Translations under genes and position numbers: made by a program
Assembly: GCA_018725485.1 (NCBI GenBank)
Contig: QLUP01000079.1
Coordinates: 1-5,178, forward strand
Source: Candidatus Lithacetigena glycinireducens
GTDB taxonomy: Bacteria > Coprothermobacterota > HKB111
Length of the DNA stretch: 5,178 nt
Direction: 5' to 3'
Shown: one piece after another, positions 269-5,178 of the stretch
Position numbering within the stretch: position 1 is the stretch's first letter
How the letters are laid out: each line of letters opens with the position of its first letter
Notes under the pieces: generated by a model
The model's database searches: none
Seen by the model: the letters and a program-made list of their open reading frames with translations, nothing else
What the model was told of the DNA's origin: nothing

Positions 269-1450
269 ATGTCCGTTTTTGCAGGTGTAGGAATCAGCAA
301 TATTAAGGACTCCTATCAAGCAGGTAAAGAGGCTGCTCAAAAAGCCCTCACAGAAATGGGAGGTAATCATCCCGATTTTGTTCTGGTATTTAGCACTGAC
401 AGTTTCAATCAAAAGGAGATGATCGAAGGAATAAGGGTAATCACTGGTAAGGCTTCCTTAATTGGCTGTTGTGGTGCTGGTGTGATATCAAAAGAGGGGC
501 TATCTACAGATTCTATCGCGGTTTTAGCACTTAGATCTGATGTTCTTCAAATCAATACTGGTATGGTAAATGATATCGGCCAAAATTCACGACTTGCAGG
601 AGAAAAAGTGGCTAAAGCAATACTGGATAAAGAACCAGAGAAAGGCTATAAATATCCTCCCACTTTGCTTATGCTTCCTGATGGCTTGACCTGCAATGTA
701 TGCGAATTAGTGAGAGGTGTTTACGAAAGTTTAGGACCTACTTACCAGCTTGTTGGTGGAGGAGCTGGTGACAATGTAAGATTTATCAAAACCTACCAGT
801 TTATTGATGATGAAGTCTATCACGATGCCGTTTCTGTTGCCCTTATCACTTCCGAAGTTCCGATGGGGATTGGAGTTGGACACGGGTGGTCTCCTATAGG
901 TAGACCTTTGGTTGTCACCAAATCTCAGGGAAATATTATTAGAGAAATTGAAGGAAGTCCAGCCTTTGAAGCCTATCTTGGCTATTTTGGAGATGTAACT
1001 CCCAGACTTACTCCTGAGAACTTTCCTGAGTTTGGGATGAGACATCCCTTAGGTTTACCTGACATAACAGGAGCCTATACCATAAGGGATCCACTTAAGG
1101 TAGAAGAGGATGGTTCTATATTTTGTGTGGCGGAAGTGCCTGAAAACTCAGTGGTAAGAATAATGAAAGGGGACAACGAATCTGTTATTCAAGCAGCTAA
1201 GGAGAGTGCTCAAAAGGCAGTGAATTCAATAGGGAAGAGAAAGCCTGGTTTAGCAATTGTCTTTGATTGTGTCTCAAGACTTCTACTCTTGGGAAAAGAG
1301 GCTCAAAGAGAGTTAGATACTATTAGAGATGTCATTGGTAGAGATGTGCCTTTAATTGGGTTCTTCACCTTTGGAGAGATAGGCTCTGCTAATGGTGGTC
1401 CTCCTGTTTTTCATAATAAGACAGTGGTAGTGTGTGTGATGGCCTCATAA
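269..1450 (+). CDS. FIST-domain (FIST_N plus FIST_C) signal-sensing protein
   Basis: This 393-residue soluble protein has no signal peptide or membrane segment and should act in the cytoplasm. FIST_N spans about residues 30-220, with the glycine-rich IGCCGAG at 65-71, the GGGAGDN loop at 163-169 and GVGHGWSPIG at 202-211. FIST_C spans about 225-370, with PLGLPD at 260-265 and the typical closing signature FFTFGEIGS at 365-373, followed by FHNKT at 381-385. The length matches stand-alone FIST proteins. The family is a ligand sensor, first proposed to bind small molecules such as amino acids; its NosP members bind haem and sense nitric oxide. The protein has no catalytic or output domain, so it must signal through a partner, and the c-di-GMP enzyme 80 bases downstream is the obvious candidate. 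A TCNVC pair at 141-145 is unusual and might bind metal or respond to redox. The ATG at 269 is preceded by AGAAGGTG (257-264), a reasonable ribosome binding site. The FIST call is firm; the ligand is unknown. Confidence 0.93.
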   Translation: MSVFAGVGISNIKDSYQAGKEAAQKALTEMGGNHPDFVLVFSTDSFNQKEMIEGIRVITGKASLIGCCGAGVISKEGLSTDSIAVLALRSDVLQINTGMVNDIGQNSRLAGEKVAKAILDKEPEKGYKYPPTLLMLPDGLTCNVCELVRGVYESLGPTYQLVGGGAGDNVRFIKTYQFIDDEVYHDAVSVALITSEVPMGIGVGHGWSPIGRPLVVTKSQGNIIREIEGSPAFEAYLGYFGDVTPRLTPENFPEFGMRHPLGLPDITGAYTIRDPLKVEEDGSIFCVAEVPENSVVRIMKGDNESVIQAAKESAQKAVNSIGKRKPGLAIVFDCVSRLLLLGKEAQRELDTIRDVIGRDVPLIGFFTFGEIGSANGGPPVFHNKTVVVCVMAS

Positions 1451-1470
1451 CTATTTTTTGATAAAATTAT

Positions 1471-1483
1471 GGTTAAGTTAACC
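1471..1483. promoter_or_regulatory. Palindrome GGTTAAGTTAACC between the two genes
   Basis: A perfect six-base inverted repeat (GGTTAA / TTAACC) surrounds one central G, in the 80-base gap between the FIST gene and the c-di-GMP enzyme gene, 47 bases before the latter's ATG. A looser relative, ATGGTTAAG followed by AGTAAC, occurs at 229-243 in front of the FIST gene, and both sites begin with ATGGTTAAG. A dimeric regulator could use them as operators, but AT-rich palindromes of this length arise by chance. No clear promoter or terminator is visible in this gap, so co-transcription of the two genes is the default reading. Confidence 0.3.
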
Positions 1484-1530
1484 CCTTAGACGCGATATCA
1501 TTAACAGAGTTTACAAGGAAGAATTAATTG

Positions 1531-4500
1531 ATGGCTGAAAAAAGACGAGTCAAAAATTCGCAATCTAATAATAAGAGTCTCCAATCATTAACTGATCTGG
1601 AGAAAAGAATAGTCGAACTTTCAGTTCTTTACGAGTTATCTTCCATCCCCGCAGTTGGGTTAAATATGGAGGAGATTTTCAACACGGCAATGGACAAAGC
1701 AACAAGACTGATGAAAGCAGAGAGAGCCGCCCTTTTCCTTTTAGATGAACTCACCCAGAAACTAATTATAAAAGTGGGTCAAGGATTTGGAAGAGAAGAT
1801 CTTAAAACAATCACTATCGAGCCTGGAGAGGGGTTTATTGGACAAGCATTTAAAGAAGGAAGACCAATAAATCTTTGGAACCAAGGAGGTTTTAGAAGAT
1901 TAGATCCTTTTATTAAAAGATTTCCTGTTAAATCTGCAATGATTACGCCCATAAAGGTAGGAGAAAAATTTATTGGCGTTCTTTATTCAGGAAGACTCCT
2001 TCCTCAAAAATTCACCTCAGAGGAACTAAGGTTATTCACTATTTTAGCTGATCGGGTGGGGGTAGCTATTGAAAATGCACGGCTTTTTGAAAAAGAAAAG
2101 CAGCATAGGCAACAACTATCCGATCTTCAAACAACCTCCACTGCTATCATCTCTGAGCTCAATCTAAAATCACTTTTGCAAACGATTACTGATAAAGCTG
2201 CCCAAACCTTTAATGCCCCTGCTGTTAGTCTTATGTTCTGGGATGAAAAGGAAGAGAATCTTATTATAAAAGCTAGTTTTGGTCTATCTGATGAATATGT
2301 TAAGTCTCAGCGCATTCCCAAAGATAGAGTCAATTTAGCCAAAGGGCCTGAAGGAAAATTTGTACCCTTCGTTACCTCGGATATCCGTCTTACCCCTTTC
2401 GGGGATGTTAGTCTCATTAAAAGAGAGTGTCTTTGTACTGTATTAACTATCCCACTTTTAGAATCCAGCAAGCTAATTGGTGTTGGTGCCCTCAACATTT
2501 ACAGTAAAGATAGTCCACGAGTCTTTAGTTCAGAAGATATTGAGCTTGCTCAGATCTTTGCTTATCAAGCTTCAATCGCCATCGAGAACGCTCGGCTCTT
2601 TGAAAGAGAAAAAGAAGTTGCTAAACAACTTAGAGCAATAAGTGAGATGGGAAGAGTGATTATAAGCTCCTTAGAAACTGAAAATTTATTCAAGCAGGCT
2701 GTCGATTTAGTTGAAAATGTTGGACCCTATCCTTTTGTTTTCGGATTATTATTAGATAAAGAAACCAATGAGTTAGTTCAGATAGCCAAGGCTGGAAGAA
2801 TCCAGGACAAAATTCCTTCTAAGTATAAGCAAAAGATAACAGAAGGAGTGGTTGGTCGAGCGGTTGTCACAGGTGAAATTCAGATTTCAGGAGATGTAAG
2901 CACTAATCCTTATTACTTAAAATGGTTTCCTGAGGTAAATTCCGAAATTTCTGTTCCAATTAAAACAAGGTTTGGAGAAGTGATTGGCGTTTTAGATGTT
3001 CAATCAGATAAATTCAACGCATTTAGAGAAGATGATATTACAACTATTCAAACTATCACAGACCAACTCTCAGTTGCTGTAGAAAACTTACAACTTTATA
3101 AAGATTTAGAAAAAAGAGTAAATGAATTATCCAGCCTTTACGCGATCGCACAGAGTATCACCAGTATATTAACTTTAGATGATGTTCTCAATCAAGCTCT
3201 TGCTAAATTAAGACAAGTTGTTCCCTCTCATGCAACTGCAATACTACTCTTTGATCCTTCGTTGAATGTATTAAAAGTTAAAGCTTTCTCTGGACCATCG
3301 ATAACTGGTTTGGAAACTATTCACTTTAAACCAGGACAGGGTATTACTGGAACAGCATATCAAACCAAAAAAGGCATTATTGTCCCGGATGTAGAGAAAG
3401 ACCCAAGATATATTACTGGGTTTCTGGACATTAGAAGCGAGATAGCTGTCCCCCTTATTTATCAAGATGAGATATTAGGTGTTTTAAACGCAGAGAGCAA
3501 AGAAATTAATGCCTATAATGAAGATCATCTGAGAATTGTGAATTATTTTGCTAATCAAGTAGCCATTGCCATCAGAAATGCTCAGCTATTTGAAGAGACC
3601 CAGCGTCTTGCAGCCACTGATCCCTTAACAGGTGTTTGGAATAGAGGGCATGTTGAGAAACTTCTTAAGACCGAGTTGGAACGCGCTCATCGCTTCCATC
3701 AAGAATTCTCTGTTCTTTTAATAGACTTGGACAACCTTAAGTTCTTCAACGATACCTATGGTCATTCAGCAGGGGATAAGGTTATCTGCATGCTTGCCCA
3801 GCTCCTTCTAAACACATGTCGGGAGATTGATATCGTGGGAAGATATGGAGGAGATGAATTTGTGGTTATTCTGCCCGAGACTGACGCCCCAGGTGCTACT
3901 GTGGTTGGAGAGAGAATCCTGACTGCTTTGAAAAAGGAAGCCTTCTGGACACCAAAGGCTACCAGAGTGCCGATCAACATAACCATAGGTGTTGCCTCCT
4001 ATCCCTCAGATGCTGATGAGGTTGACAGACTTTTATCTCTTGCCGATGCAGCTATGTACCGGGGCAGGGTTGGAGGAGGAGGAAGATTCTCCTCACTCAC
4101 AGCTCGTCCCCGAGAGGAGCCCGAGCCTTTGTCTACTCGTTTTGATGTGTTAGAAGGATTACTGATTGCAATAGATAGCAAGGATCATTACACCTTTAGA
4201 CACTCCCAGGAGGTTACTAAATTAGCTCTTGCCCTGGGGCAAAAGGTAGGGCTATCTCCAGAAGAGATGAGAATGCTTGAGATTGCAGGTAAGCTTCATG
4301 ATGTGGGAAAGATAGGCATCCCCTCTAATATTTTAAATAAGCCTGGAGTGCTCAATCCAGAAGAATGGAAGGCGATTCAGGAGCATCCTCGCTTAGGATA
4401 CTTGATCTTACAGCAAATTCAACAAATAGAACAAGCACTTCAGGTTGTGTTACTTCATCATGAACGGTATAACGGTGAAGGTTACCCATCAAATCTAAAA

Positions 4501-4704
4501 GGTGAGGATATACCACTCCTTGCCAGGATCTTAGCTATTGCTGATGCATTTTCAGCTATGCAGACTGACCGACCTTATCGAAAAGCATTAACCCCTGCGG
4601 AAGCCGTCCATGAACTGCTGCTTAATGCTGGAAAGCAATTTGACCCCGAGTTAGTAGAGAAGTTCATTGAACTCGTTGAAAAAGGCGAGATCAGTTCGTC
4701 ATGA
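1531..4704 (+). CDS. Bifunctional c-di-GMP enzyme: 4x GAF, GGDEF cyclase, HD-GYP phosphodiesterase
   Basis: This 1057-residue cytoplasmic protein has no membrane segments. Domains in order: coiled-coil lead-in 20-40; GAF1 about 43-185; GAF2 207-356; GAF3 378-521; GAF4 548-685; GGDEF 693-855; linker 856-869; HD-GYP 870-1050. The GAFs end in helices carrying ENARLFE (181, 352) or variants (518, 682), typical signalling helices. The cyclase keeps DLDNLKFFND (732-741), GHSAGD (744-749), GGDEF (773-777) and the RxxD product-inhibition site (764-767). Asn740 and Asp749, the guanine-contacting pair, argue for c-di-GMP rather than cGAMP. The phosphodiesterase keeps H891, the HD pair 923-924 with K927, H952, HH 976-977, GYP 984-986, D1005 and RPYR 1014-1017. 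One chain should therefore make c-di-GMP from two GTP and hydrolyse it. I chose the ATG at 1531; a TTG directly before it (1528) could also serve, and AAGGAAG (1515-1521) suits both. It is probably in an operon with the upstream FIST sensor. Both activities are inferred from conserved residues. Confidence 0.96.
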   Translation: MAEKRRVKNSQSNNKSLQSLTDLEKRIVELSVLYELSSIPAVGLNMEEIFNTAMDKATRLMKAERAALFLLDELTQKLIIKVGQGFGREDLKTITIEPGEGFIGQAFKEGRPINLWNQGGFRRLDPFIKRFPVKSAMITPIKVGEKFIGVLYSGRLLPQKFTSEELRLFTILADRVGVAIENARLFEKEKQHRQQLSDLQTTSTAIISELNLKSLLQTITDKAAQTFNAPAVSLMFWDEKEENLIIKASFGLSDEYVKSQRIPKDRVNLAKGPEGKFVPFVTSDIRLTPFGDVSLIKRECLCTVLTIPLLESSKLIGVGALNIYSKDSPRVFSSEDIELAQIFAYQASIAIENARLFEREKEVAKQLRAISEMGRVIISSLETENLFKQAVDLVENVGPYPFVFGLLLDKETNELVQIAKAGRIQDKIPSKYKQKITEGVVGRAVVTGEIQISGDVSTNPYYLKWFPEVNSEISVPIKTRFGEVIGVLDVQSDKFNAFREDDITTIQTITDQLSVAVENLQLYKDLEKRVNELSSLYAIAQSITSILTLDDVLNQALAKLRQVVPSHATAILLFDPSLNVLKVKAFSGPSITGLETIHFKPGQGITGTAYQTKKGIIVPDVEKDPRYITGFLDIRSEIAVPLIYQDEILGVLNAESKEINAYNEDHLRIVNYFANQVAIAIRNAQLFEETQRLAATDPLTGVWNRGHVEKLLKTELERAHRFHQEFSVLLIDLDNLKFFNDTYGHSAGDKVICMLAQLLLNTCREIDIVGRYGGDEFVVILPETDAPGATVVGERILTALKKEAFWTPKATRVPINITIGVASYPSDADEVDRLLSLADAAMYRGRVGGGGRFSSLTARPREEPEPLSTRFDVLEGLLIAIDSKDHYTFRHSQEVTKLALALGQKVGLSPEEMRMLEIAGKLHDVGKIGIPSNILNKPGVLNPEEWKAIQEHPRLGYLILQQIQQIEQALQVVLLHHERYNGEGYPSNLKGEDIPLLARILAIADAFSAMQTDRPYRKALTPAEAVHELLLNAGKQFDPELVEKFIELVEKGEISSS

Positions 4705-4823
4705 CCTACTGAGCCTTTCATAAATAATGGAGACAGGCATATTTTTAAGCAAGTAAATATCAATATTATCCTTTAAATATATAGGTGGATACAATAAAAT
4801 AATTCTGCCTATCCCCTTAATCA
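4705..4823. other. AT-rich 3' flank of the enzyme gene, no gene
   Basis: No gene is visible on either strand. Just after the stop codon, GCCT (4713-4716) can pair with AGGC (4735-4738), and this is followed by ATATTTTT (4739-4746). This could be a very weak intrinsic terminator, but the stem has only four pairs and an 18-base loop. Further on, 4782-4791 pairs with 4810-4819 at nine of ten positions (core GGATA / TATCC, one G-U, one mismatch) around an AT-rich 18-base loop, with no T run after it. Transcription may end near here, but no convincing terminator can be pointed out. Confidence 0.4.
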
Positions 4824-4857
4824 TCATTGCGGGCAACTGAAGGTTGCGAAACAAACT
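4824..4857. repeat. Palindromic repeat, TTGCG family, copy 1 (degenerate)
   Basis: The element reads TCATTGCGGGCAAC, TGAAG, then GTTGCGAAACAAACTC. GCAAC (4833-4837) pairs with GTTGC (4843-4847) around the loop TGAAG. The outer frame, CATTGCG on the left and a CAA-containing right end, resembles the widespread dispersed repeat with CATTGCGAG on the left and GGCAATC on the right. Two further members lie at 4966-5022 and 5041-5078. The right arm is degenerate here. Confidence 0.5.
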
Positions 4858-4878
4858 CATGTTTTATCGATTGTTCCT

Positions 4879-4919
4879 TTACTTCTCCTCCCTTGATGGG
4901 AGGAGATAGAGGAGGGTGA
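4879..4919. repeat. Direct repeat A, copy 1, with internal hairpin
   Basis: TCTCCTCCC (4884-4892) and GGGAGGAGA (4898-4906) form a perfect nine-base stem around the loop TTGAT, followed by AGAGGAGGGTGA (4908-4919). The first 29 bases (4879-4907) are identical to 5094-5122, and the final 12 are identical to 5125-5136. No T run follows the stem, so it is better read as a dispersed palindromic repeat than as an intrinsic terminator. Confidence 0.85.
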
Positions 4920-4930
4920 AGTTCTCTGTC

Positions 4931-4952
4931 ACTCTGGACCCCAATCCAGAGT
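4931..4952. repeat. Palindrome ACTCTGGA / TCCAGAGT
   Basis: A perfect eight-base stem (4931-4938 with 4945-4952) surrounds the six-base loop CCCCAA. With the GTC in front of it (GTCACTCTGGACCCC), it resembles from memory a common dispersed repeat that starts GTCATTCTGGACCCC. It lies between the two copies of direct repeat A and abuts the TTGCG-family copy at 4966. Confidence 0.6.
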
Positions 4953-4965
4953 CTCCTTCACTTTG

Positions 4966-5022
4966 TCTTTGCGAGCCCCGCACCTATTCACCAATCTCCA
5001 ATAGGTGTGGGGTGTGGCAATC
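4966..5022. repeat. Palindromic repeat, TTGCG family, copy 2 (long arm)
   Basis: CCCCGCACCTATT (4976-4988) pairs with AATAGGTGTGGGG (5000-5012) over 13 positions, one of them G-U in RNA, around the 11-base loop CACCAATCTCC. Outside it, TTGC (4969-4972) matches GCAA (5017-5020). The frame TTTGCGAG ... TGTGGCAATC is the recognisable outer part of the family. The inner arm differs in sequence and length from the other two copies but still folds. Confidence 0.7.
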
Positions 5023-5040
5023 CCATGTTCTCTCCTCTTT

Positions 5041-5078
5041 GTCATCGCAAGACTGCCAAAGGCGGTCAAGCGACCTTA
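5041..5078. repeat. Palindromic repeat, TTGCG family, copy 3
   Basis: GTCATCGCAA leads into GACTGCC (5051-5057), which pairs with GGCGGTC (5061-5067) over seven positions, one of them G-U, around the loop AAA. CGC (5046-5048) and GCG (5070-5072) extend the symmetry outside. The lead-in TCTCCTCTTTGTCATCGCAAG (5031-5051, in two parts: TCTCCT and CTTTGTC onward) matches 4952-4975 in front of copy 2, apart from three extra bases and a few substitutions there. A longer unit than the hairpin alone is therefore duplicated. Confidence 0.6.
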
Positions 5079-5093
5079 TCTTTTATCGCCCCC

Positions 5094-5136
5094 TTACTTC
5101 TCCTCCCTTGATGGGAGGAGATTGAGAGGAGGGTGA
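5094..5136. repeat. Direct repeat A, copy 2, with internal hairpin
   Basis: This is the second copy of the element at 4879-4919, 215 bases downstream and in the same orientation. It has the same nine-base stem (5099-5107 with 5113-5121) and TTGAT loop. It differs only by two extra bases (TG at 5123-5124) before AGAGGAGGGTGA. Together the two copies bracket the CTCTGGA palindrome and TTGCG-family copies 2 and 3. Confidence 0.85.
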
Positions 5137-5178
5137 TTTATTATATAGTTCTAATAAGTATGTAAACATGATATTCCC
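5137..5178. other. AT-rich window end, no gene
   Basis: No coding frame is supported. On the minus strand, TTTACA (5166-5161) and TATAAT (5145-5140), separated by 15 bases, resemble a promoter pointing left into the repeat cluster. No gene lies there, so the match is probably a product of AT-rich composition. Confidence 0.2.

Follow-up and report, generated by a model that had tools for sequence, protein, structure and literature searches.

Stand-alone FIST proteins are widespread, and most of what is understood about them comes from NosP and the kinases it works with. Control of c-di-GMP enzymes by FIST proteins through kinases is known from the NosP-NahK-NarR and NosP-NosK-NosR systems, in the latter of which NosR is a REC-HD-GYP protein (PMC8846402, PMC12570481). 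In CdpA of Vibrio cholerae, FIST is fused to a c-di-GMP enzyme and the protein is inhibited by heme, and direct control of a diguanylate cyclase (DGC) or a DGC-phosphodiesterase (DGC-PDE) by a stand-alone sensor is represented by Legionella Hnox1-Lpg1057 and by the H-NOX-DGC pair of Shewanella woodyi (PMC8846402). The locus described here pairs a stand-alone FIST with a DGC/PDE enzyme in two adjacent genes. A preliminary description regarded this partnership as uncharacterised; the linkage of FIST to c-di-GMP and HD-GYP proteins was in fact already known from NosP and CdpA, and it is the direct two-gene form that differs. Our literature check covered open-access papers, and direct FIST-DGC/PDE pairs may have been reported earlier.

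The stretch of DNA analysed (the window) is an entire contig of 5178 bp with two genes on the plus strand. Open reading frames, Pfam domains and intact motifs all agree with the arrangement first described, namely a stand-alone FIST gene with a co-oriented gene for a four-GAF GGDEF/HD-GYP protein 80 bp downstream. The FIST gene (269..1450; ATG at 269, stop at 1450) encodes 393 aa comprising FIST_N (PF08495; aa 36-229, 374..955; E 1e-52) and FIST_C (PF10442; aa 232-372, 962..1384; E 2e-34), with scores of 179 and 118.8 bits against Pfam gathering scores of 23.2 and 28.5, respectively. The second open reading frame was listed from a TTG at 1528; the in-frame ATG at 1531 was taken as the start, giving a protein of 1057 aa (1531..4704) and the 80-bp gap. 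This enzyme contains four GAF stretches by Pfam, GAF1 (1588..2115, the one matched by the profile described below), GAF2 (2098..2625) and GAF3 (2626..3105), the latter two with approximate boundaries, and GAF4 (aa 548-681, 3172..3573), followed by a GGDEF diguanylate cyclase domain (aa 694-846, 3610..4068; Pfam E 7e-43) and an HD-GYP phosphodiesterase domain (HD_5; aa 881-1041, 4171..4653; Pfam E 4e-42), all on the plus strand.

Both catalytic domains retain their motifs. The cyclase has RYGGDEF, with GGDEF at aa 773, and an intact inhibitory RxxD I-site (REID at aa 764). The HD-GYP domain keeps H891, H923/D924, K927, H952, H976/H977, D1005 and GYP, and the counterparts of these ligands in PmGH are H189, H221/D222, K225, H250, H276/H277 and D305. 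The position of PmGH E185 is occupied by Tyr887, and the metal site is therefore likely to be binuclear rather than trinuclear. Weak Cas3-type HD matches to this domain from PADLOC were dismissed as generic HD similarity. Both proteins look soluble, their mean hydropathy over 19 residues peaking at 1.4 and 1.5. No domains other than those of these two genes were found in the 5178-bp contig by Pfam, and an Rfam search of the window returned no match.

To place the pair in a wider context, FIST loci were collected from a sample of 386 genomes, 89 of which contain FIST, and from a scan of genome contigs; survey genes were delimited by a simple longest-ORF rule, and the counts are therefore approximate. 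Among 58 genes located directly downstream of FIST on the same strand, 41 carried HATPase_c, 39 HisKA, 26 a response regulator domain, 9 GAF and 2 GGDEF, whereas none of these appeared among the families listed for 45 control genes three to four positions from FIST. For histidine kinases the difference (41/58 versus 0/45) corresponds to a Fisher p of 3e-15, so that FIST genes generally lie upstream of signalling proteins; the pairing seen in the window is not due to chance. Adjacency or fusion of FIST and c-di-GMP enzymes recurs across lineages. According to Pfam, one locus encodes FIST-GGDEF-HD-GYP in a single protein and seven encode FIST-GGDEF fusions. As separate genes, FIST precedes GAF-GGDEF at one locus, GAF-GGDEF-EAL in four genomes (gaps of -1 to 18 bp) and PAS-GGDEF-GAF-HD-GYP in one genome (L235; gap of 10 bp). 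FIST followed by GAF-STAS was found in all six genomes carrying this FIST in the genus of another locus, L090, with a gap of 24-25 bp. The FISTs paired with or fused to c-di-GMP enzymes occupy different places in the FIST tree, and direct pairing apparently has more than one origin. The window enzyme and L235 share their outputs, but the L235 FIST belongs to a different clade, and by this placement L235 parallels the window pair rather than being its orthologue. The fusions and recurrent two-gene pairs lend weight to the earlier suggestion that FIST and enzyme are linked in trans.

Maximum-likelihood analysis of 76 FIST domains placed the window FIST in a well-supported clade of 10 rows (ultrafast bootstrap 100, SH-aLRT 99). 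Four members of this clade are fused FIST-GAF-GGDEF proteins. L090 has FIST followed by a GAF-STAS protein, and L096 has FIST followed by a kinase whose N-terminus is the same GAF-like module; in L165, L166 and L173, FIST is followed by kinases with a different N-terminus, for which no relation to the GAF module was detectable (hhalign probability 1.7%). A profile of the FIST-linked GAF was built from five modules, namely the four fused ones and that of L090, with the window left out. It scored 48.8 bits with GAF1 and at most 5.8 bits with GAF2-4, and when it was compared with 1572 genes two matches other than the seeds came up, L096 with an E value of 1e-26 and the window enzyme with 5e-13, the next standing at E 0.04. 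By this comparison, the resemblance of GAF1 to the FIST-linked GAF is specific. A seven-row profile, consisting of the five modules together with the window and L096, reached at least 132 bits across the 386 genomes for its own seven training rows only, the next score being 35, which shows a lack of other strong matches rather than independent confirmation; its weak matches to ordinary GAFs extended up to 33 bits.

From these observations we consider it probable that the two genes form a bicistronic module in which docking of FIST on GAF1 in trans determines the balance between DGC and PDE. The docking step is proposed because the post-FIST module of the fused clade members matches GAF1 and not GAF2-4, which marks GAF1 as a module of FIST-partner type and a putative docking site. 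We infer that the genes are co-transcribed. The soluble FIST would bind a small-molecule or redox signal and serve as a detachable sensor subunit, acting in trans on a soluble DGC/PDE enzyme; its presumed docking on the N-terminal GAF1 would alter that domain, and the change would be relayed through the GAF2-4 stack. The outcome would be a shift, in a presumptive direction, between c-di-GMP synthesis by GGDEF and its hydrolysis by HD-GYP. FIST would thus act directly on the enzyme, with no kinase relay of the NosP-NahK type. Counted against this reading are the 80-bp gap, the weak matches of the GAF profile to ordinary GAFs, the N-termini of the L165, L166 and L173 kinases, which are not detectably related to the GAF module, and the presence of a single FIST genome in the phylum.

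The preliminary description instead treated FIST as a fifth sensory input. A reading of this kind would make FIST an independent input acting at, for instance, the linker, GAF4 or GGDEF, with each GAF sensing its own ligand. It draws some support from GAF1 itself, which has a full-length GAF signature in Pfam, unlike the shortened modules of the fusions, so that ligand binding by GAF1 is still possible. However, GAF1 is the only one of the four domains that resembles the FIST-linked GAF, and in the fusions the GAF module sits directly after FIST. We therefore judge an independent fifth input to be unlikely. GAF1 is better read as the component associated with this clade of FIST proteins, and FIST and GAF1 may together constitute one receptor unit with a single input, which is likelier than FIST as a fifth.

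Partner N-termini associated with FIST were also found outside this clade. Three kinases linked to another FIST clade share a module of some 80 residues at the N-terminus, and a profile made from them gave nine matches among 1551 genes, all nine directly 3' of FIST. The six held-out matches were likewise all directly downstream of FIST (p ~6e-9), and the L235 GGDEF/HD-GYP protein was matched (2e-20) although it lay outside the building set. The module reads LLxRQLRRH...DxDRxLLERSLxLSSxEL and occurs in the partners L082-L087, L092, L102 and L235, that is, in kinases and in a GGDEF/HD-GYP protein. A second module, adA2, was found in 19 genes, 15 of them labelled as downstream of FIST and the other four FIST-adjacent by tblastn; a third, HK165, comprises four genes, one of which was checked by tblastn, and behaves like adA2. 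In these patterns the partner N-terminus tracks the FIST clade while the output varies. Common ancestry of the different partner adaptors found no support with hhalign, and the module types were not confidently alignable.

The signal was approached through the predicted structure of the window FIST (pLDDT 92). A fold comparison was used because a PDB sequence search with the single FIST protein gave nothing and a FIST profile found FBXO22 weakly (E 0.07). The best PDB match of the model was FBXO22 (Foldseek E 2e-12). Chorismatase and cyanuric acid hydrolase folds came next, hinting that the FIST fold might descend from a small-molecule enzyme. Cys334 (codon 1268..1270, plus strand) is present in 97 of 102 FISTs and aligns with Cys326 of FBXO22, and Glu370 (1376..1378, plus strand) is present in 87 of 102 and aligns with Glu362; in FBXO22, C326 is the reactive cysteine that covalent degraders exploit, with E362 as its neighbour (PMC13316043). 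The conservation and alignment of this pair, together with the structural match, make a thiol-based or small-molecule signal possible. His205 (881..883, plus strand) occurs in all 10 rows of the clade that contains the window FIST; it is not claimed as a general heme ligand, as only 51 of the 102 FISTs have it and L235 does not.

ALAD (HemB) is needed for tetrapyrrole synthesis. None of the nine phylum genomes had it, against 11 of 14 control genomes, and the phylum seems unable to make tetrapyrroles. Owing to this absence, a heme sensor here would depend on imported heme, and heme/NO is doubtful as the signal of the window FIST. The same evidence bears on the possibility that the protein is a NosP-type heme NO sensor whose main route runs through a histidine kinase at another locus, the adjacent enzyme being the downstream target. 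It is established that NO acts on c-di-GMP through NosP (PMC8846402, PMC12570481), histidine kinases make up the 41 of 58 downstream genes noted above, and the closest named family is indeed NosP (equivalog NF041558); yet the window FIST scores 116.2 bits, far under the curated cut-off of 450, the enzyme has no receiver domain by Pfam to take a phosphoryl group, and the lack of HemB makes de novo heme improbable. We accordingly hold a NosP-type relay to be quite improbable at this locus. As to the kinase gene expected in a NosP operon, none lies on the 5178-bp contig, although the contig ends are close to the module, 268 bp before it and 474 bp after it. The FBXO22-like Cys/Glu pair and the absence of heme synthesis in the phylum make the question of the FIST signal directly testable.

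A broader scenario can be offered only tentatively, in which FIST would be a general plug-in sensor, each clade having co-evolved with its own docking module while outputs (kinase, GGDEF, GGDEF-EAL, GGDEF-HD-GYP, STAS) were swapped behind it; where heme synthesis is lacking, the Cys/Glu pair would sense an electrophile, a thiol or a small molecule, not heme/NO. Should the association between FIST clade and partner N-terminus hold as observed here, sequence could be used to predict the partners of orphan FIST proteins.

The source assembly is 1.24 Mb with 83% completeness and belongs to a small phylum from which nine genomes were examined. FIST occurs only in the window's own genome, the other eight being without it, so the conserved neighbourhood sought as a check of the pairing is missing from the phylum and recurs in distant lineages. 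It is possible that FIST was recently acquired or that the contig was mis-binned. A 3' repeat (4820-5140) recurs in other contigs of the same assembly and in a same-genus genome, with no match in the seven remaining phylum genomes, and this confinement to the assembly and its genus favours correct binning; the tetranucleotide profile was not decisive. Within this region, a 36-nt direct repeat (4876-4911 and 5091-5126; 94%) contains an internal CTCCTCCC...GGGAGGAG palindrome, and parts of the region with this repeat recur some 30 times in the same-genus genome, the seven others giving no match. The window enzyme is the sole GGDEF protein found in its assembly; in the rest of the phylum the number ranges from 0 to 19. 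A PilZ domain was not found in this assembly and at least one was present in each of the other eight genomes, which probably reflects incompleteness or else the use of a different c-di-GMP receptor.

The intergenic stretch (1451..1530, plus strand) has no terminator-like site. At 80 bp it is longer than the gap in most comparable FIST pairs, which ranges from -1 to 25 bp, and an internal promoter is therefore possible. It includes a perfect palindrome, GGTTAAGTTAACC (1471-1483), possibly an operator or internal regulatory site; allowing up to two mismatches, this palindrome was matched in 37 of 200 shuffles. That the genes are chance neighbours and the FIST target lies elsewhere, as a gap with its own palindrome and an adjacency not conserved in the phylum might suggest, is highly improbable in view of the recurrent fusions and adjacent pairs of distant lineages and the specificity of the GAF1 match to the window's FIST clade.

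Compared with described systems, the locus resembles NosP-NahK-NarR of Legionella and NosP-NosK-NosR of Burkholderia in that a stand-alone FIST adjoins signalling genes ending in GGDEF/EAL or HD-GYP. Those systems place a histidine kinase and a receiver between FIST and enzyme, whereas the window has neither, its FIST scores far under the NosP cut-off and its lineage is without HemB. The data point to a circuit shorter than NosP-kinase signalling, with FIST acting directly on the DGC/PDE. They also point to a specific surface for docking, one of the GAF1 type. FBXO22, a human protein, shares the FIST fold and the aligned Cys/Glu residues but is a ubiquitin ligase substrate receptor with no c-di-GMP role. 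Like CdpA, the window links FIST to a c-di-GMP enzyme without a kinase; CdpA, however, is a single protein with an EAL output, whereas the window encodes FIST as a protein of its own next to an enzyme with GGDEF and HD-GYP as outputs. By analogy, direct control by a stand-alone sensor would place the pair beside the H-NOX/diguanylate cyclase systems, although their sensor domain (HNOB) is unrelated and is a heme NO sensor with experimental evidence.
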